Part shown: piece by piece, positions 30,282 through 40,962 of the stretch
Position numbering within the stretch: position 1 is the first letter of the stretch
Layout: each line of letters starts with the position of its first letter
Source: Candidatus Gemmiger stercorigallinarum
GTDB taxonomy: Bacteria > Bacillota > Clostridia > Oscillospirales > Ruminococcaceae
NCBI GenBank assembly: GCA_019119495.1
Contig: DWWX01000004.1
Coordinates: 28,656-92,655 of the forward strand
DNA: 64,000 nucleotides
Reading direction: 5' to 3'
Program-made: the position numbers and the translations under genes
Notes under the pieces: generated by a model
The model's database searches: none
Told to the model about the DNA's origin: nothing
The model's input: only the letters and a program-made list of their open reading frames with translations

Positions 30282-32330
30282 TCAGTCCTCGTCCAGGTCA
30301 AAGTCGCCGGGCAAAAGCAGCTCCAGCGAGGCGTCCGGGTCGGCCACCAGCCGCTTGGACTGGTTCAGGATGGCCCGCTCCACCACGTTGCGCGCCATGC
30401 GGCCGTTGCCGTTTTTGCCGGCGTCGGCGGCTTGCCGGCGGGCAAAGTAGTCTTTCAGCGGGGCCTCGCAGGCGGCGTCCAGCGCGTAGCCCTTGCCCTT
30501 TGCGATGGAGCCCGCGATCTGCCACAGCTGCTCGCCGGTATAGTCGGGGAACTCGATCTGGTTGGGGAAACGGCTGGCCAGGCCGGAGTTGGCGGTCAAA
30601 AACTGCTGCATCTCCCTGGTGTAGCCGGCCAGGATCACCACCAGGTCGTCCCGGTGGTCCTCGATGCCCTTGACCAGCGTGTCGATGGCCTCCAGACCAA
30701 AGCTGTCCTCCCGGCCGCGGTAAAGGCTGTAGGCCTCGTCGATGAACAGCACACCGCCCAGGGCGCTCTGGATCACCTGGTTGGTCAGCGGGGCGGTGTG
30801 GCCCACGTAGCGGCCCACCAGGTCGGCGCGGGTCACCTCCACCAGCTGGCCGCCCCGCAAGGCGCCGATGGCCTTGAGGTACTTGGACAAGATGCGGGCG
30901 ATGGTGGTCTTGCCGGTGCCGGGGTTGCCGGTAAAGATCATGTGCATGTTGACGCTGGCGGCCTGCAGGCCCTGGGCCTTGCGCCGCTGCTGGGCCTGCA
31001 CGTTTTTGGCAATGTCCCGCACAAAGGTCTTGACTTCCTCCAGGCCGATGATGCCGTCCAGCTCGGCTTCCACGGCGGCCACGTCGCCGCGGTACTGCTG
31101 GGGCAGCAGGTTCAAAAGGTCAAAGGGCTCGCCGCCGTTTACTGCGGCCATCAGGCGGCCGTCTGCCACTGTCAGCCGCATGGCGGTGCCGGCGGGCAGC
31201 GGTTCCTCGTGGTCCAGCACATACTCGGCAATGGCGCGGTAGGCGTCGTCGGCGTATTCCTGGATGGCGTCCACGCCGTTGGCACGGCCGTAGCGGGCGG
31301 CCAGGTGGTCCCGCACCGCCCCGTCGGCGGAAAGGGCCAGCCCGCACTGGGCGCGCACCTTCTGGGCCAGAGCGTTCAGCTCCCGCGCAGCGATGGCGTT
31401 CAGGCTTTCGGGTGTGAAGGGGGCGGTGCGGCAGATGTCGCCGGACAGCGCGTCCACAAACCGCGCGCCGAACCGCTCGGCCAGGGCCTCGGGGCCTTTG
31501 GAGGAAAAGAACACAAAGTATTTGCCGCCGGCCTGCAGCTCGCCCACCGCGCCGGGGGCCAGCGCGGTGCCCACATCCACCAGGATGCCCCGCTGCAGCA
31601 CATACCGGCTGGAAAGCGCCAGCGTGCCGTCGATGGCCAGCGTGGCCAGCATGTTCAAATAGGCCGAAGCGCAGCCCTCGTAATGGTCAAAGGCCAGGAT
31701 CTCGGCGTCCGACTGCAGCGCGGCGTACAGGTCCTGCAAAAACAGCTTTTCCTGCGCGGGGCCGGGGTAGAGCGAAAGATCCATCGTCTCGATCCTGGCG
31801 GCGGAGATCAGCCCGCGGGCGGCCAGTTCCTCGGCCACGCAGCGCAGGGCATAATGGCGGCCGGTGCCCTCGGCGCCGCACAGCAGCATGACGCTGCGGG
31901 CGCGGGCGGCGTCCGGCACGCCCATCACAAAGGGGCGGCGGAAGGCCTTGACCACCGCGCCCACAAACTCGTCCTGGCCCAGCACGCGGGTGCGCACCTG
32001 GTCCGCCAGGCCCACAAAATCGCCCCGCTTTTTGGCCGGCGCCGGCTTTTGGGGGGCGTTGTCCAGCAGGCCGTCCTTTTTCAGCGAAGCCGTCAGCTCG
32101 CTGCTCATGCGGCGGACGTTTTCCATAGTGGCGTCGGCGGCGCGGCCCACCGCGTCGGCCGCTTTGCCGGCGGCGGTGCGGCGTTTCTGGCTTTGGGCGG
32201 TCATCTCGTCCAGGGCGCGCTGCATCTCCTCCACGCTTTGGGCGGCGGCGTCCGCCTCCCGCTTGGTGGAAGCGCGGGCGGAACCCATTAGGTCGCGCAC
32301 CCAGGCGTCGTATTGGTCCTCAATGCTCAT
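30282..32330 (-). CDS. Two-module AAA ATPase (N-terminal degenerate AAA-like region + C-terminal CbxX/SpoVK-like AAA)
   Basis: C-terminal module: MIFTGNPGTGKTTIARIL Walker A, GGVLFIDEAYSLY Walker B, SGLASRFPNQIEFPDYT. N-terminal module has VMLLCGAEGTGRHYALR in place of a clean Walker A. Confidence 0.85.
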   Translation of the reverse strand: MSIEDQYDAWVRDLMGSARASTKREADAAAQSVEEMQRALDEMTAQSQKRRTAAGKAADAVGRAADATMENVRRMSSELTASLKKDGLLDNAPQKPAPAKKRGDFVGLADQVRTRVLGQDEFVGAVVKAFRRPFVMGVPDAARARSVMLLCGAEGTGRHYALRCVAEELAARGLISAARIETMDLSLYPGPAQEKLFLQDLYAALQSDAEILAFDHYEGCASAYLNMLATLAIDGTLALSSRYVLQRGILVDVGTALAPGAVGELQAGGKYFVFFSSKGPEALAERFGARFVDALSGDICRTAPFTPESLNAIAARELNALAQKVRAQCGLALSADGAVRDHLAARYGRANGVDAIQEYADDAYRAIAEYVLDHEEPLPAGTAMRLTVADGRLMAAVNGGEPFDLLNLLPQQYRGDVAAVEAELDGIIGLEEVKTFVRDIAKNVQAQQRRKAQGLQAASVNMHMIFTGNPGTGKTTIARILSKYLKAIGALRGGQLVEVTRADLVGRYVGHTAPLTNQVIQSALGGVLFIDEAYSLYRGREDSFGLEAIDTLVKGIEDHRDDLVVILAGYTREMQQFLTANSGLASRFPNQIEFPDYTGEQLWQIAGSIAKGKGYALDAACEAPLKDYFARRQAADAGKNGNGRMARNVVERAILNQSKRLVADPDASLELLLPGDFDLDED

Positions 32331-33463
32331 TGGTCGTTCTCCTCATTGGCACGGCGGGGCAGGCGGATGCGGTAAAAATTCTTGGCGCTGCAGCCGGCGC
32401 GGCCGCCGCCTGCGCAGGCGCAGGCACACGCGCAGGAAACGCAGGCGCAGGCGCACACGCAGCTGCCGTGGTGGCTGGTGTCCCGCCCGGCGCCGCCGCC
32501 GCGGGTCTCGCCGCCGCCTGCCTTGAAGCCCGGCGGCGGGTTGGAGGTATGGTAGCCTGCGGGCGGGCGGCTGCCCCGCGCCATGCGGATGTAGTTGGCG
32601 CCGTTATAGTACCAGACCCAGGCGGCCGGGTCGTAGCCGCCGCCAAAGCCGCCGCGCCAGCGGGCCGGCCGGCCGGCGTAAAAGATCGCCGCAAAAAACA
32701 GCACCACCAGCAGGGTCATCAGCGCCACCGCGCCGTCGTAGCGGCTGCCGGTGCTTTGGGGGCGGGCGGGGGTGTTTTCCTGGCCGGTCATGGCGTTGGC
32801 CGGGTCAAACACCTGCGCCGTGGTGATGGGCACCGTCACGTTGACGGTGGCGCGCTCGCCATGGGCCAGCGGGCCGAACTCCCACACCAGATAATCGCCG
32901 TCCACGCTGTGGTTGTCGGCCAAAAAGCCGTCATAGTTCCGCCAGCGCACCGTCAGGCTGTCCACGCAGATCTCGTCGAACCAGCCGGGGGTAAAGCTGA
33001 AACTGGCGGTGTCGTCGTCATTCTCGGTGAACAGATGGCTCTGGTGCACCCGGAAGCGGAAGCTGACCTCGCTCTCGCCGCCGTTCTGCGCCGCCACGTC
33101 GGGGGCGTAGTAATGGTCGTGGAAGGTCACCTGGGCATAACTGCCGCCTTCGGTCAGCAGGCTCACGTCGGCCACGGTGTCGGGGCTTAAGTTCTCGAAC
33201 TCGTCGGCATACTCGTTGGCCAGGCCGATGGTCACCCACGAGAGGGAATCCTCCGCCCCGCCGCCGATCACCTTCCAGTCGATCTCGTAGGTGATGTCGG
33301 CGCTGCCGTCCTGCCGGGGGTCCACCGTCACCACATAATTGGTGATCTCGTCGTAGTCGCCGGCGTCGGCAAAGGCGGCCGGGGCCAGCAGGGCGGCGGT
33401 CAAAAGCGCCGCCAGGGCCAGCGCCAGGCGGGCGGCCAGGCGGTGCAGGGGTCGTGTTTTCAT
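32327..33463 (-). CDS. Secreted/membrane protein with alternating Cys-X C-terminal tail (candidate radical SAM substrate or partner)
   Basis: Signal peptide LALALAALLTAALLAPAAFA, extracytoplasmic beta-rich domain, TM segment VALMTLLVVLFFAAIFYAG, tail GSCVCACACVSCACACACAGGGRAGCSAKNFYRIRLP. ATGA overlaps at both ends with neighbours. Confidence 0.8.
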   Translation of the reverse strand: MKTRPLHRLAARLALALAALLTAALLAPAAFADAGDYDEITNYVVTVDPRQDGSADITYEIDWKVIGGGAEDSLSWVTIGLANEYADEFENLSPDTVADVSLLTEGGSYAQVTFHDHYYAPDVAAQNGGESEVSFRFRVHQSHLFTENDDDTASFSFTPGWFDEICVDSLTVRWRNYDGFLADNHSVDGDYLVWEFGPLAHGERATVNVTVPITTAQVFDPANAMTGQENTPARPQSTGSRYDGAVALMTLLVVLFFAAIFYAGRPARWRGGFGGGYDPAAWVWYYNGANYIRMARGSRPPAGYHTSNPPPGFKAGGGETRGGGAGRDTSHHGSCVCACACVSCACACACAGGGRAGCSAKNFYRIRLPRRANEENDQ

Positions 33464-34848
33464 GCGTCCTCCTTCGGGCGGCGGGGGTCGCCCAGCTGGC
33501 AGAGATGTTCCATCCGTGCGCTGACGCGGCGGATGCGGCGGCAGTCGCTGCCGTTCCAGATCTTTTGCCAGGGCTGGTGCAGGATGTCCCCCAGCCCCGG
33601 CCCGGACAGCCAGCTCTGGCAGGGCAGCACGGTGCCGTCCGGCGCAACGGCCATGTTGGACAGGCAGGCCCCGCAGCTGGGGATCAGCGTAAAGCCCAGC
33701 GCCTGCAGCGTGCCTTCCGGCAGCCAGCCGGGGCTGGTAAACTCCAGCTCCATGGTGTTGTGGTCGGCCCAGGTCTTGGCGCTGCGCAGGGCGGCGGTCA
33801 GTTCTTCGGTGGAAAGCCGGGTGGCGATGCTGTCTTTCTGCACGGCGCCGCCGGCGGGGATCAGCCCGCTGCAGGTGGCATAGCGCACGCCCAGGCTGCG
33901 CACAAACTCCAGCGTGGCGCGGTAGTCCCGGTTCAGGCTGCACAGCGGCGTGTTGACGCTGACGTTCAGCCCGGCGGCCACGGCGTTGCGGATGCCGCTG
34001 ACCGTGTCCTCAAACCCCGGCGCGCCCACCAGCGCGTTGTGTACGGCGGGGTCGGCACTGTACAGCGTTACCTGCACGGCGTCCAGGCTGGCGTCGTACA
34101 GCTCACGGCAAAGGGGGGCGGTCAGCAGGCGGCCGTTGGTGTTCAGCCGGGTCACAAACCACTGGGCGGCCCGCACCAGCTTGACCAGGTCGTTGCGCAT
34201 GGTGGGCTCGCCGCCGGTAAAGGTCAGCTGCGGGATGCCTGCGTCGCGGCATTTCTGGATGACGGCCATCCACTGGTCGGTGTCCAGCTGGGGGGCCATG
34301 CCGTAGGGCTGGTGGGCGGCGTAGCAGTGCAGGCATTTCTGGTTGCACTGCCAGGCGCCGTCCTTCTGCATCGAGCTGACCATCAGGTCCATGCGGTGGG
34401 GGGCCTGCATGTGGGGGGCATACTGCCCCAGGTCCATGCGGGCCACCGGCAGCACCGGCGTGCGGCCCTGGGCAATGTCGCGGAAGGCGTCCAGCATGGC
34501 GGTCAGGTCGGCGCGGATCTGCTCGGCGGGGGTGCGGGTATAGACGGCAATGGTGTCGGCCACGGCCTGCTCCACCACGGCGTTCCACTGGCCGGGCTGA
34601 AGTTCCTGCCCCTCAAAGGGCTGCAGGGCGTCGATCAGGTTGGAAAGCAGGATCGCCCACGAGACGTTCAGCGGCAGGATATCCCGCCCGTTCAAAATGG
34701 CGACAAAGGGCACGTCCCGCCAGCCGCCGCGGCGGGGCACCAGGTGGATGCGCACCACGCCGGGCCCGCCGGGGTCCAGGGTGACATGGCGCACGGCGTT
34801 CAGCCGCTGACGGAGAAACCGGTTCTCCGCACGGGAAAGTAACGGCAT
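33460..34848 (-). CDS. Radical SAM protein with SPASM-like C-terminal Cys cluster
   Basis: CNQKCLHCYAAH (CxxxCxxC), LTFTGGEPTMRNDL, C-terminal SCGACLSNMAVAPDGTVLPCQSW...MEHLC. Confidence 0.9.
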   Translation of the reverse strand: MPLLSRAENRFLRQRLNAVRHVTLDPGGPGVVRIHLVPRRGGWRDVPFVAILNGRDILPLNVSWAILLSNLIDALQPFEGQELQPGQWNAVVEQAVADTIAVYTRTPAEQIRADLTAMLDAFRDIAQGRTPVLPVARMDLGQYAPHMQAPHRMDLMVSSMQKDGAWQCNQKCLHCYAAHQPYGMAPQLDTDQWMAVIQKCRDAGIPQLTFTGGEPTMRNDLVKLVRAAQWFVTRLNTNGRLLTAPLCRELYDASLDAVQVTLYSADPAVHNALVGAPGFEDTVSGIRNAVAAGLNVSVNTPLCSLNRDYRATLEFVRSLGVRYATCSGLIPAGGAVQKDSIATRLSTEELTAALRSAKTWADHNTMELEFTSPGWLPEGTLQALGFTLIPSCGACLSNMAVAPDGTVLPCQSWLSGPGLGDILHQPWQKIWNGSDCRRIRRVSARMEHLCQLGDPRRPKEDA

Positions 34849-35162
34849 ACAAAACACTCCAGCAAAACAAAGTCGGCCGCCGCGGCGCGCAGCCTGCCGC
34901 AGCAGGGCGGGGCGGCCGGTCATGGTCAGGGCAAGACCGGGTACAGTTTACGGCTATTATAGCATGGAATGCGCAGGAATACAACGGAAAGCCGCCGCCG
35001 CGCACCGCCCCAAACGGCGCGGAAAAGCAGCCGTGGCGGCCCCGGCGGAGACTTCCCTGTCTGGTTGGGGAATTTTGCCGCCTTGCCGCACCTGGGCGCG
35101 CCGGGAGAGGGGGGCCGCGCATTCTGCCCGGTTTTGCCGCCGGGCGTGCATCCCCCAAAAAC

Positions 35163-35199
35163 AAAAGCGCCGCCCGGCGCATTGACCGGGCGGCGTTTT
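35163..35199. terminator. Terminator downstream of ilvD
   Basis: CGCCGCCCGG...CCGGGCGGCG with flanking AAAA/TTTT. Confidence 0.75.
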
Positions 35200-35227: not shown

Positions 35228-36886
35228 TTATTGCAGCACCGCGCCATAGTTGGCGCTGGTGACCATGCGGGCGTAGCGGCTGAGCCAGCCGGACTTGACG
35301 TTGGGCTCCGGCTGCACATAGGCGGCTTTGCGGCGGGCCAGCTCCTCGTCGTCCACCTCCAGCGTGATGCTGGCGTTGGGGATGTCGATGGAGATGGTGT
35401 CGCCCTCCTGCACCAGGCCGATGGGCCCGCCGGAGGCAGCCTCCGGGCTGACGTGACCGATGGCCGCTCCGCGGGAGGCCCCGCTGAACCGGCCGTCGGT
35501 GATCAGCGCCACGGTGGTGTCCAGCTTCATGCCGGCCAGCGCGCTGGTGGGGTTGAGCATCTCGCGCATGCCGGGGCCGCCCTTGGGGCCTTCGTAGCGG
35601 ATGACCACCACGTCGCCGGGATGGATGCGGCCGTTGTAGATGGCGTCGATGGCCTGCTCCTCGCTGTCAAAGACGCGGGCGGGGCCGCTGTGGCACTGCA
35701 TCTCCGGCGCGACGGCGCTGCGCTTGACCACGCAGCCGTCCGGGGCCAGGTTGCCCCAGAGGATCTGCAGGCCGCCGGTCTCGCTGTACGGGTCGTCGAT
35801 GGGGCGGATGGCCTTCTTGTCCAAAATATGCGCGCCTTTAATGTTCTCGCCCAGCGTTTTGCCGGTGACGGTGGGAACATCCAGGTCCAAAAGCCCTTTC
35901 TTGGCCAGCTCGGCCTGCACCGCCGGGATGCCGCCCGCCGCGAACAGGTCGGGCATGTGGGTGGGGCCGGCGGGGGCCAGGTGGCACAGGTTGGGGGTCT
36001 TGGCGCTGATCTCGTTGAACAGTTTCAAATCCAGCGGCACGCCGGCCTCGTGGGCGATGGCCAGCAGGTGCAGCACCGTGTTGGTGGAACAGCCCAGCGC
36101 CATGTCGCAGGTCAGGGCGTTGCGGATGGACCGCTCGTTGACGATCTGCCGCGCGGTGACGCCCCGGCGCACCAGGTCCATGACAGCCATGCCGGACCGC
36201 TTGCCCAGCTGCAGCCGCTTGGCGTAGACGGCGGGGATGGTGCCGTTGCCGGGCAGCGCGATGCCGATGGCCTCGCACAGGCAGTTCATGCTGTTGGCGG
36301 TGTACATGCCGCTGCAGGAGCCGCAGCCGGGGCAGCAGTTGCAGGTGCAGTCCTCCAGCTGTGCGTCGTCGATCAGGCCCGCCTTGTAGGCGCCCACGGC
36401 CTCGAACATTTTGGACAGGCTGACTTCCTCGCCGCCGTAGCTGCCGGCCAGCATGGGGCCGCCGGAGCAGACGATGGCCGGCACGTCCAGCCGGCAGGCG
36501 GCCATCAGCATGCCGGGCACGATCTTGTCGCAGTTGGGCACCAGCACCAGGCCGTCCAGCTGGTGGGCCATGAACATGGTCTCGACGCTGTCGCAGATCA
36601 GCTCGCGGCTGGCCAGCGAATACTTCATGCCGATGTGGCCCATGGCGATGCCGTCGCAGACGCCGATGGCCGGGATCAGGATGGGCGTGCCGCCCGCCAT
36701 GCGGACGCCCGCCTTGACGGCGTCCGCCAGCTTGTCCAGGTTCATGTGGCCGGGCACGATCTCGCTGTAGGCCGAGACCACGCCGATCAAGGGGCGCTCC
36801 AGCTCCTCAGGGGTGTAGCCCAGGGCATAGAACAGGCTGCGGTTGGGCGCCCGCTCCGGCCCTTTGGTAACATTATCGCTGCGCAT
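35228..36886 (-). CDS. ilvD: Dihydroxy-acid dehydratase
   Basis: [28 protein letters not shown]-type [33 protein letters not shown]. Confidence 0.97.
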
Positions 36887-36904
36887 GAGTACAAAACCTC
36901 CTGA

Positions 36905-36947
36905 TTAAAAAGGGAGGGCAGGGGGCTTGCCGGCCGCCTGCCCTCCC
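36905..36947 (-). terminator. Terminator between ilvC and ilvD, directly before the ilvD RBS
   Basis: Perfect 11-bp stem GGGAGGGCAGG/CCTGCCCTCCC followed by TTTTTAA on the minus strand. Confidence 0.75.
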
Positions 36948-37039
36948 GGGGTCAAAAATCAAAATTTGTCACTGCCGGCGGGCCTGCGACGCTGCCGGCA
37001 ATGCCGCCTTGCAGCGCGGCAAATCTTCGCCGGGCAGGC

Positions 37040-38065
<1,026 letters not shown>

Positions 38066-38294
38066 TTACTCCTTTTTGTGAATAATTTTTAGATTATTAC
38101 AATCTGTATATTCGACGCCGAGAGGGCGGGGAACCGAAACAAAATCAGGAATGAGGAATTGGAAATGAGAAATTGCGGGCGGCCGCCGGGCTGCAAAATA
38201 AACAGGAAACGCAGCAGCCTTCCGGCAAGCCTCAGGGACCGATAGGCCTGAAGGCGGCCGGAATGACAGGCAAAGGGCGGGAAAACCGCCGGCC

Positions 38295-38879
38295 TTACCG
38301 GTTGCCTTTGGGGCCGTATGTGGGGTAGTTGATCCCGCTGACCTCCTGCACCGGTTTCTGCATGTGCTGGTGCATGCCGCCGCGCTCGATGGCGGTGACG
38401 CCGGTGCGGCACATCTCCAGGATGTTGTAATCCTGGAACATGACCAGGAAGGCGTCGATCTTGCTGGGCTTGCCGGTCAGCTCAAACACCATGCTGTCGG
38501 GCGAAAGGTCAATGATCTTTGCCTTGTAGATGCTGGCGATCTCCCGCAGCTCGGCGCGGTTGTGCACGTCGCAGGCGACCTTCAAAAGCAGCAGCTCCCG
38601 CTGCAGGCTGTTGTCCTGGTCCAGCTCAAAGATCTGGCGGGTCACTTCCAGCCGATCGGTCTGCAGAAGCAGCTGGGTGATGGAGTTCTCGTCGCCGTGG
38701 GTGGTGACGGTGATGCGGCTGATGTTGGGGTCGTTGGTGGTCGAGACCGTCAGGCTGTCGATGTTGAAGCCGCGGCGGCAGAACAGGCTGGACACCCGCG
38801 CCAGAACGCCGCTCTGGTTATCCACCAGGATGCTGATGACCCGGCGTTCGGCCGCGTCGGTTTTCTTCACAGTGGGCAT
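38295..38879 (-). CDS. ilvN: Acetolactate synthase small subunit
   Basis: RRVISILVDNQSGVLARVSSLFCRRGFNIDSLTVS ACT domain. Confidence 0.94.
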   Translation of the reverse strand: MPTVKKTDAAERRVISILVDNQSGVLARVSSLFCRRGFNIDSLTVSTTNDPNISRITVTTHGDENSITQLLLQTDRLEVTRQIFELDQDNSLQRELLLLKVACDVHNRAELREIASIYKAKIIDLSPDSMVFELTGKPSKIDAFLVMFQDYNILEMCRTGVTAIERGGMHQHMQKPVQEVSGINYPTYGPKGNR

Positions 38880-38893
38880 TGCTGGGTCCTCCT

Positions 38894-40558
38894 TTACTCC
38901 ATCATAATGTCGTTGATGTCGCCGCCGCCGGGGATCATGGGCAGCACTTTCTCGTCCTTGCCGATGCGGCAGTCGATCCAGCTGGGGCCTTTCTGCATCA
39001 TCGCGTCGGCAAAGGCGGCTTTGAACTCGGCCAGCGTCTCGCAGCGGTAGCCCTTGGCGCCGAAGCCCTCGGCCACCTTGGCAAAATCGGTGCGGCGCTG
39101 CGGGTCGGTGTTGGAGTAGCGCCTGCCGTAAAAGGCGGTCTGCCACTGGCGGACCATGCCCAGCACCTGGTTGTTGAAGATGACGGTGATGATGGGCAGG
39201 CCGTAGCTGACGGCGGTGCAGCCCTCGTTCAGGTTCATGTGGAAGCTGCCGTCGCCGGTCAGCATGACCACGCGGGCGTCGGGGCCAAGGCCGATCTGCG
39301 CGCCGATGGACGCGCCGTAGCCAAAGCCCATGGTGCCCAGGCCGCCGCTGGTGATAAAGCCGCGGCTCTTGACGTGGTGCAGGTACTGGGCCGCCCACAT
39401 CTGGTGCTGGCCCACGTCGGTGACATAGACCGCGTCGGGGCCGGCCTGGCGGCAGATCTCGTCGATCATCTGGTGGGGCTTCAGCTCGGTGTCGCTGTCC
39501 ACCGGCTTGTAGTCGTGGGCCTGCCATTCCCGGATCTGCTCCATCCAGTCCCTGTGCTCGGCGGGCTGGATGTGGGGCAGGATGGCCTGCAAAATGTAGG
39601 CCGCGTCGCCCACCAGCGCCAGGTCGATGGGGACGTTTTTGCCCATCTCGCTGGGGTCGATGTCGATCTGGATGTGCTTTGCATTGTGGGCGAAGGTGTC
39701 GGGGTTCAGCGCCACCCGGTCGGAAAAGCGGGTGCCCACGGCGATGACCAGATCGGCCTCGTCCACCGCCTTGTTGGCGGTGTAGCAGCCGTGCATGCCC
39801 AAAAGCCCCAGGTTCAGCGGCTCGCCGTAGGCCAGCACACCGGCGGCCATCAGGGTGTAGGTGGCGGGGATCTGCGCCTTGGCCAGCAGGTCGCGCAGCG
39901 GCTGGCAGCCTGCCGCGCCCCGCACGCCGCCGCCGAACACGACGATGGGGCGTTTGGCCTCGTTGATCAGCCGGGCGGCTTCCAGCACGCTGGCTTCGTC
40001 GTAGCGGGTGACGGTGCGCACCGGCTCCGGCGGCTTGGGGGCAAACTCGCAGCGGTTGGCGGTCACGTCCTTGGGGATGTCCACCAGCACCGGGCCCTTG
40101 CGGCCGCTTTGGGCAATGCGGAAGGCGGCGCGCATGGTGTCGGCCAGATCCTCGACCCGGCGGACGGTGTAGTTGTGCTTGGTGATGGGCATGGTCACGC
40201 CCTCGATGTAGGCTTCCTGAAAGCTGTCCTTGCCCAGCAGAGAGGTGGCCACGTTGCCGGTAAAGGCGACCATCGGGATGCTGTCCATGAAGGCGGTGGC
40301 AATGCCGGTGACCAGGTTGGTGGCGCCGGGGCCGCTGGTGGCCAGCACCACGCCGGTGCGCCCGGTGGCGCGGGCATACCCGTCCGCCGCATGGGACGCG
40401 CCCTGCTCGTGCGCGGTCAGGATATGCCGGATGCGGTCGGAGTTCTTGTACAATTCGTCGTACAGGTTCAGCACCGCACCGCCCGGATACCCGAAAATGG
40501 TATCCACGCCCTGCTCGGCCAGCACCTCGACAAAAATCTGGGAACCTGTCAGCATCAT
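38894..40558 (-). CDS. ilvB: Acetolactate synthase large subunit
   Basis: VDTIFGYPGGAVLNLYDEL, HEQGASHAADGYARATGRTGVVLATSGPGATN; RBS AGGAGAGG before ATG 40558. Confidence 0.96.
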   Translation of the reverse strand: MMLTGSQIFVEVLAEQGVDTIFGYPGGAVLNLYDELYKNSDRIRHILTAHEQGASHAADGYARATGRTGVVLATSGPGATNLVTGIATAFMDSIPMVAFTGNVATSLLGKDSFQEAYIEGVTMPITKHNYTVRRVEDLADTMRAAFRIAQSGRKGPVLVDIPKDVTANRCEFAPKPPEPVRTVTRYDEASVLEAARLINEAKRPIVVFGGGVRGAAGCQPLRDLLAKAQIPATYTLMAAGVLAYGEPLNLGLLGMHGCYTANKAVDEADLVIAVGTRFSDRVALNPDTFAHNAKHIQIDIDPSEMGKNVPIDLALVGDAAYILQAILPHIQPAEHRDWMEQIREWQAHDYKPVDSDTELKPHQMIDEICRQAGPDAVYVTDVGQHQMWAAQYLHHVKSRGFITSGGLGTMGFGYGASIGAQIGLGPDARVVMLTGDGSFHMNLNEGCTAVSYGLPIITVIFNNQVLGMVRQWQTAFYGRRYSNTDPQRRTDFAKVAEGFGAKGYRCETLAEFKAAFADAMMQKGPSWIDCRIGKDEKVLPMIPGGGDINDIMME

Positions 40559-40665
40559 CGTGATCCTCTCCTTTTCCTTTTGTGGTGTTATGCGGCAGCC
40601 GGCCGCCTGCACTGCCAGGCGCGGGCGGAAGCCGGCGGCGGGACCCGCCGCCATCGTGCAGAGAA

Positions 40666-40962
40666 AGAAAAACCGGCCTTTGTCTCATCGCTCTAAAGCG
40701 TTCAAGAGACAAAGGCCGGAAATAGCTCTCTGCGGTACCACTCTTGTTGGTATGCCTTTGGGCATACCCCCCTCGACGGACTTCCAACAAAGCCCTGCAC
40801 GCTAACGGGTGCTGCCGGGCCGGCCTAATCTGGCGGGCATTTCGGTCGGCCTGCTCAGGGAGGACTTCACCCGCAGCCTTGCCCGCTGCCTTGCACCTGA
40901 CCGGCAGCTCTCTGGGGGCGGTGTTGTGGGGTACTGGTTCCCGTCACTGCATTTGAATTTAT
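40666..40962 (-). promoter_or_regulatory. T-box leader of ilvB
   Basis: Minus-strand core TGGTACCGCAGAGAGC (within 40725-40743), terminator CCGGCCTTTGTCTC...GAGACAAAGGCCGG-TTTTTCTTT (40666-40719), Stem I motifs AGTA, AGAGAGC, GGTGCAAGGC and TGAA. Confidence 0.88.

Follow-up and report, generated by a model that had tools for sequence, protein, structure and literature searches.

A radical SAM enzyme gene and a Cys-X-tailed membrane protein gene as a recurrent pair in Clostridia, a proposed enzyme/substrate cassette

In a 64,000-nucleotide stretch of Candidatus Gemmiger stercorigallinarum DNA (contig DWWX01000004.1, positions 28,656 to 92,655; hereafter the window), we examined two minus-strand genes that overlap by ATGA. 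The first (33460..34848, −) encodes a radical S-adenosylmethionine (SAM) enzyme with a SPASM (Twitch-like) region, the proposed tail modifier, and was delimited by its open reading frame (ORF; 462 aa from the ATG at 34848), Pfam matches, an AlphaFold2 model with a predicted local distance difference test (pLDDT) score of 92, and alignment; an alternative in-frame ATG upstream at 34923 would give an enzyme of 487 aa. The second (32327..33463, −), an ORF of 378 aa, encodes a membrane protein with a cysteine-rich tail, the proposed substrate, which belongs to one family of ~120 homologous tail proteins. The initial annotation of this DNA had described a radical SAM gene with SPASM-like cysteines in ATGA overlap with a tail gene, and both ORFs and the Pfam matches bore this description out.

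The window tail protein ends in CVCACACVSCACACACAGGGRAGCSAKNFY, and nine of its 10 cysteines fall in the last 48 residues, leaving one in the first 330. Its Cys-X tail, CVCACACVSCACACACAGGGRAGC, covers residues 335-358 (32390..32461, −) and is followed by a C-terminal extension, SAKNFYRIRLP... (residues 359-378; 32330..32389, −), a possible recognition follower with the pattern S/T-x-K-D/N-F-Y. All 24 Cys-X residues were identical in two congeners whose proteins are ~70% identical, although 9-11 of the codons had changed synonymously. As these residues stayed fixed despite the synonymous changes, the tail is, on the codon evidence, under strong selection at the amino acid level.

A DNA pattern for CACAxxGRAGC matched 8 of 391 genomes of the class, and the reversed control matched none. 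The same pattern returned at least 120 stretches from a named genome collection, and all tail counts from that collection given here are among the matches listed. Translation of 120 listed stretches yielded 107 real tails, including one (L060) cut by the stretch end; the other 13 (Methylobacterium, Cupriavidus, Planctomycetota and others) were rejected as chance matches that are not Cys-X tails, and the single viral_contigs match was not a strict Cys-X tail. Most carriers were uncultured members of the Lachnospiraceae, the Oscillospiraceae and other Clostridia, joined by some metagenome-assembled genomes (MAGs) of Bacilli, Acholeplasmatales and Eggerthellaceae; the type strain Gemmiger formicilis ATCC 27749 is an example in culture. 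The recurrence of GGGRAGCS-ended tails in other clostridial genomes, which the initial annotation had mentioned, was thereby recovered in many gut Clostridia. The cassette was also seen in MAGs assigned to Eggerthellaceae (Actinomycetota; L062 and L097), which suggests horizontal transfer or a binning error.

Across the 124 tails listed, there are usually 6-10 cysteines, mostly one Ala apart, with the units CASS, CAHSS and CVS upstream, and the consensus end is CACACA-(GG/SS/GS)-GRAGC, then S/T-x-K-D/N/E-F-Y and ~20 further residues. S/T at +1, K at +3 and D/N/E at +4 after the tail were each present in 124 of 124. The search pattern imposed CACA and GRAGC, but not the S/T at +1 or the K at +3.

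At nearly every locus the tail was found together with the enzyme, the gene of which lay immediately upstream. Searching the tail loci with the window enzyme located the enzyme for 103 of the 124 tails listed, on the same strand in 101 of these 103. In the named-genome subset it lay inside the fetched stretch for 89 of 108 tails, and in 79 of 84 upstream pairs the tail gene started −32 to +63 nt from the enzyme stop. Whole-genome searches for the 19 tails with no enzyme in their stretch, plus two similar cases, recovered the enzyme except in four genomes; in three of these the sequence is interrupted by the end of a contig, and in the other (L058, G1055) the tail gene is broken at its N-terminal end. 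In one genome (G576) enzyme and tail are encoded on separate contigs. Consistent adjacency of a radical SAM gene had been named beforehand as the expectation that homologous tails usually lacking it would refute, and the gene proved almost always to be present. In some genomes (L031, L050, L017 and L120) two tail proteins accompany one enzyme, as a tandem or divergent second copy, which suggests that one enzyme serves several tails in such genomes. In G692 (L160 2663-5598), the tail gene is split by ~1.9 kb, with the coding stretch DYEATTDFPPNIQYLQIGVANSDFTLL repeated on both sides, a pattern as would be left after a mobile-element insertion.

Searches led by the enzyme gave the same association from the other direction. 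A family scan of 120 genomes found five with the enzyme, and these were the same five known to have the tail protein. A class scan found the enzyme in ten genomes, with the exact tail in 7, a GGRVGCSERGY variant in 2, and a contig end inside the Gly-rich stretch before the tail in 1. A phylum profile search with the enzyme added ten more genomes, all with Cys-tailed proteins; since the enzyme alone was the query, this recurrence of the tail was not imposed by any pattern. In total, 19 of 20 enzyme-bearing genomes carried a Cys tail, and the contig of the twentieth stops just before it. Several of the cassettes from the phylum search are distant, with tails that end CVSCACACVSCACACACAGGGGAGCARKF or SSCACACACACASSGGCT at the extreme C-terminus, and distantly aligning enzymes from other classes adjoin Cys-tailed DUF2207-like membrane proteins with the variant endings GGGGAGCARKF or SSGGCT. 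One distant group, with tails ending SSGGCT, lacks the follower. Four distant cassettes (L174-L177) show the reverse order, tail gene and then enzyme, with tails ending exactly at SSGGCT or GGGGCT, and at L174-L176 two additional conserved genes come after the cassette. Distance matrices of enzyme and tail protein correlated at r = 0.90, a value reached in 0 of 999 permutations, to which shared species history contributes.

When we clustered all neighbouring ORFs across the loci, only the enzyme and tail genes were recurrent, and no conserved protease, exporter/transporter or immunity gene was found across the clustered neighbourhoods.

From its N-terminus, the window tail protein consists of a hydrophobic segment, a folded domain, one transmembrane (TM) helix and the tail CVCACACVSCACACACAGGGRAGCSAKNFYRIRLP. 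The first segment, a signal peptide or first hydrophobic segment (residues ~1-33; 33365..33463, −), has its hydropathy peak at 13-31 and a predicted helix at 5-31. AlphaFold2 modelled a confident beta-sandwich at residues ~35-215 (32819..33361, −; pLDDT mostly >93), which would be a DUF2207-N-like extracytoplasmic domain, then a TM helix at 242-264 (32672..32740, −), also placed by hydropathy and followed by basic residues, and a disordered tail. The sandwich resembles in fold ribophorin I and the N-terminal (N-domain) region of M1 aminopeptidases. The N-terminal regions of the tail proteins formed a single homology cluster, alignable throughout, and we rejected the idea that several unrelated membrane proteins bear the tail. 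A hydrophobic segment at the N-terminus and one or more later TM helices were present in each of the 98 full-length members (91 had exactly one such helix), and by net charge the side after the later helix is the more basic in 86 of the 98. This arrangement of hydrophobic segment, helix and charge places the beta-sandwich, by prediction, outside the cell and the Cys tail in the cytoplasm, on the same side as the enzyme. Of the earlier description as a secreted protein with a TM helix, the helix and the full-size membrane protein were retained; the protein is not secreted but membrane-anchored, with a tail predicted to be cytoplasmic.

The tail proteins share with DUF2207 (PF09972), the closest family in Pfam, a TM helix and a low-complexity Gly/Ser C-terminal region, and 5 of 48 homologues matched its N-terminal domain in Pfam (E down to 8.8e-6); the window protein itself had no Pfam match to DUF2207. 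Judged from these matches, the tail proteins are distant relatives of DUF2207 rather than members. A zinc ribbon was present within the linker in 5 of the 48. Canonical DUF2207 proteins differ in being mostly 590-720 aa long, and at 30 loci they had neither an enzyme of this family as a neighbour nor a Cys tail, on which ground a Cys tail as a general DUF2207 trait was rejected; where readable, their ends were mostly Gly-rich, GGGFSGG...GGGGAF or ...GGGGSW. Among the DUF2207 proteins of Clostridia (L178-L207) a conserved Gly-rich tail is common, and the Cys-X tail seems to replace it in the radical SAM-linked branch.

Pfam assigned Radical_SAM (2.3e-19) and SPASM (1.6e-8) to the window enzyme, which carries the motif CNQKCLHC, and all 38 homologues, which share 43-83% identity with it, have both domains. 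Invariant in the alignment of these 38 were CX3CX2C (C168, C172, C175), C392 and C410, as was the enzyme gene segment at 34324..34347 (−), and C395 and C450 were kept in at least 90%. The SPASM/Twitch region with C392, C395, C410 and C450 (33499..33675, −) is predicted from the alignment to hold a single auxiliary Fe-S cluster; the cysteine pattern, with C395 missing in a few members, fits one such cluster. In distant homologues the cysteines read as a complete SPASM motif (CX2CX14C ... CX2CX5CX3C). The N-terminus (residues ~20-126; 34471..34791, −) has the predicted topology E-E-E-E-H-H-H, strands and then three helices, which resembles the PqqD-like recognition element (RRE) of enzymes acting on ribosomally synthesized and post-translationally modified peptides (RiPPs). 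Profile comparison with PqqD (hhalign), in the expected register, gave a probability of 28% for the window group, which is weak, and 61% for a distant group, and we describe the domain as RRE-like, not as a proven RRE. No curated NCBIfam radical SAM family was reached by the enzyme, the best-scoring one, TIGR04055, giving 88.7 bits where the cut-off is 500. The nearest solved structures by profile and fold were SkfB (a sactisynthase), SuiB, CteB and PqqE, with anSME also among the relatives. Taken from these sequence and fold comparisons, the enzyme is of the peptide-modifying, RiPP-maturase type.

SkfB, the radical SAM/Twitch enzyme of the sactipeptide SkfA, was both the best profile match (E 1e-20) and the best fold match. 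SkfB has a radical SAM barrel and a single auxiliary cluster, as predicted for the window enzyme, and an RRE where the window enzyme has its RRE-like domain. Its C333 and C351, which flank a beta-hairpin, fall where C392 and C410 of the window enzyme lie; however, identity in the fold alignment is ~19%, and the third ligand pair of SkfB (CXC) is not seen in the window enzyme. SkfA is a short exported killing peptide, whereas the partner here is a 310-480 aa membrane protein with no exporter or protease. CteB, which acts on SCIFF ranthipeptides, and the streptide synthase SuiB also ranked high by fold; both are radical SAM/SPASM enzymes that have an RRE and act on Cys-rich or short peptides, but their precursors are short, they have two auxiliary clusters, and SCIFF peptides are not repeat tails of membrane proteins. 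In general, the adjacent partner of sactipeptide and ranthipeptide maturases is a short Cys-rich peptide, and in the present family only the tail of the partner is Cys-rich. The radical SAM/SPASM enzyme QhpD forms thioether links in the gamma subunit of quinohemoprotein amine dehydrogenase. By description, it offers a parallel in that cysteines are cross-linked within a protein that stays functional and is not a natural product; unlike the tail proteins, this subunit is soluble and periplasmic, has other partner genes and bears no (Cys-Ala)n tail.

We consider it probable that the two genes are a substrate/enzyme cassette in which the tail is modified on a retained membrane protein. Because an enzyme of RiPP-maturase type always travels with one tail and nothing else, the tail is very probably its substrate. 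The broader proposal, that a dedicated enzyme turns the cytoplasmic poly-(Cys-Ala) tails of widespread full-size membrane proteins into a multiply cross-linked or backbone-altered membrane-resident module, a structural, protein-level form of RiPP chemistry and not a secreted peptide, seems to us slightly better than an even bet. According to this proposal, the membrane protein would insert so that its beta-sandwich faces outward and the Gly/Ser-rich linker and (Cys-Ala)n tail reach into the cytoplasm. The enzyme would grip this protein through the RRE-like domain, with the C-terminal SxKDFY follower as the probable contact in most members, although we hold recognition through this follower only tentatively. 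It would then generate a 5'-deoxyadenosyl radical and modify the alternating Cys-X stretch several times, with thiolates of the substrate bound by the auxiliary cluster. Thioether cross-linking, to which we give an even chance, is favoured by the nearest relatives and by the cysteines; the likeliest product would be a ladder or hairpin of thioethers from sulfur to the backbone carbon of Ala, Ser or Gly around the GGGRAG turn. The modified tail would stay in the membrane as a cytoplasmic module, with no release as a peptide. As the mildest of guesses at a physiological role, this could be an envelope protein that responds to redox state or to metals. In Streptococcus mutans, a DUF2207 protein influences how well the cells tolerate acid and peroxide and how they form biofilms (PMC10457818), which makes an envelope-stress function conceivable; the proteins are only distantly related, and the analogy is no more than a lead.

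Several points weigh against this proposal. The chemistry is invisible from sequence, and the case for an RRE in the window enzyme is made by predicted topology and by profile scores that are weak. Recognition cannot depend on the follower everywhere, since the SSGGCT group does without it. Known sactipeptides have 1-4 thioethers in a hairpin with donors N-terminal to acceptors (PMC8326336), an arrangement unlike that of the present tails, in which 6-10 cysteines are separated mostly by Ala. The Cys-X repeats also resemble the metal ligands of metallothioneins.

The last point leads to a tail that is an unmodified metal or Fe-S binding module, with the enzyme acting on another substrate or only helping loading. 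The resemblance of the CxC repeats to metallothionein sites, and a zinc ribbon in the same linker of some members, which indicates that the region can bind metal, speak for it; however, this enzyme family and this tail occur one-to-one in both directions, no other conserved candidate substrate lies nearby, and a plain metal site would need no dedicated RiPP-type radical enzyme, so that we judge it quite improbable. A modified tail without thioethers, in which every second residue is epimerised to alternating L/D, cysteines are dehydrogenated or some other mass-light change is made, is also unlikely, though less so. The fold leaves the chemistry unfixed, as anSME and PqqE are relatives too, the last 6-8 tail residues before GGG alternate strictly, and radical SAM epimerases of the PoyD type work in a 1,3 pattern (PMC8326336). 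Nevertheless, the nearest relative by both profile and fold is a sactisynthase, upstream Cys spacings of 3, 4 and 5 (VS, ASS, AHSS) interrupt the alternation, and the proteusin epimerases have no SPASM/Twitch cluster (PMC8326336), which this enzyme does have.

The type of the enzyme and the C-terminal place of the tail, where a core peptide usually lies, would also suit an oversized RiPP precursor whose modified Cys tail is cleaved and exported as a bioactive peptide. Neighbourhoods with no conserved protease, transporter or immunity gene, together with an N-terminal part that is a conserved, folded extracytoplasmic domain unlike a leader, argue against a released peptide, and antibiotic cores diversify whereas this tail hardly varies; we regard such a precursor as very improbable. 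Modification of the tail on a retained membrane protein is the reading we prefer.

A radical SAM enzyme with an adjacent substrate is a known kind of system, but the form seen here, with a Cys-Ala tail of low complexity carried by a full-size membrane protein that is retained, seems not to have been described. In the open-licence literature, a scope that excludes subscription journals and preprints, no description turned up of the tail, of CxCxC repeats together with radical SAM enzymes, of a DUF2207/radical SAM pairing or of membrane-anchored RiPP substrates; with no curated family covering either gene, the view of the pair as an uncharacterised family also stood. Such a system is easily overlooked because RiPP mining tools seek short precursors, and here the substrate would be the terminal part of a membrane protein of 310-480 aa. 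The cassette is common in gut and rumen Clostridia, and as a small, self-contained pair it lends itself to direct testing. A cross-linked tail, should that be the product, would mean that radical SAM chemistry is put to a new use in anaerobes, the building of a permanent module on a membrane protein. The proposal, if true, would also provide the first functional handle on DUF2207 relatives and, for use in peptide engineering, an enzyme able to place many modifications within a simple repeat.

In the window, the tail gene is followed, again with an ATGA overlap, by a co-transcribed gene for a SpoVK/CbbX/EccA-like AAA+ ATPase (30282..32330, −) with an extra N-terminal AAA-like region. The ATPase is a genus-level neighbour, found beside the cassette in only 6 loci, all of close relatives, and was rejected as a component of the system. 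Directly upstream of the cassette lie branched-chain amino-acid genes named from sequence as ilvD, ilvC and acetolactate synthase subunits (35228-40790, −). A terminator-like hairpin (35168..35195, −; consensus match only) follows ilvD, and its position between ilvD and the cassette suggests that the cassette is a transcription unit separate from ilvD upstream.

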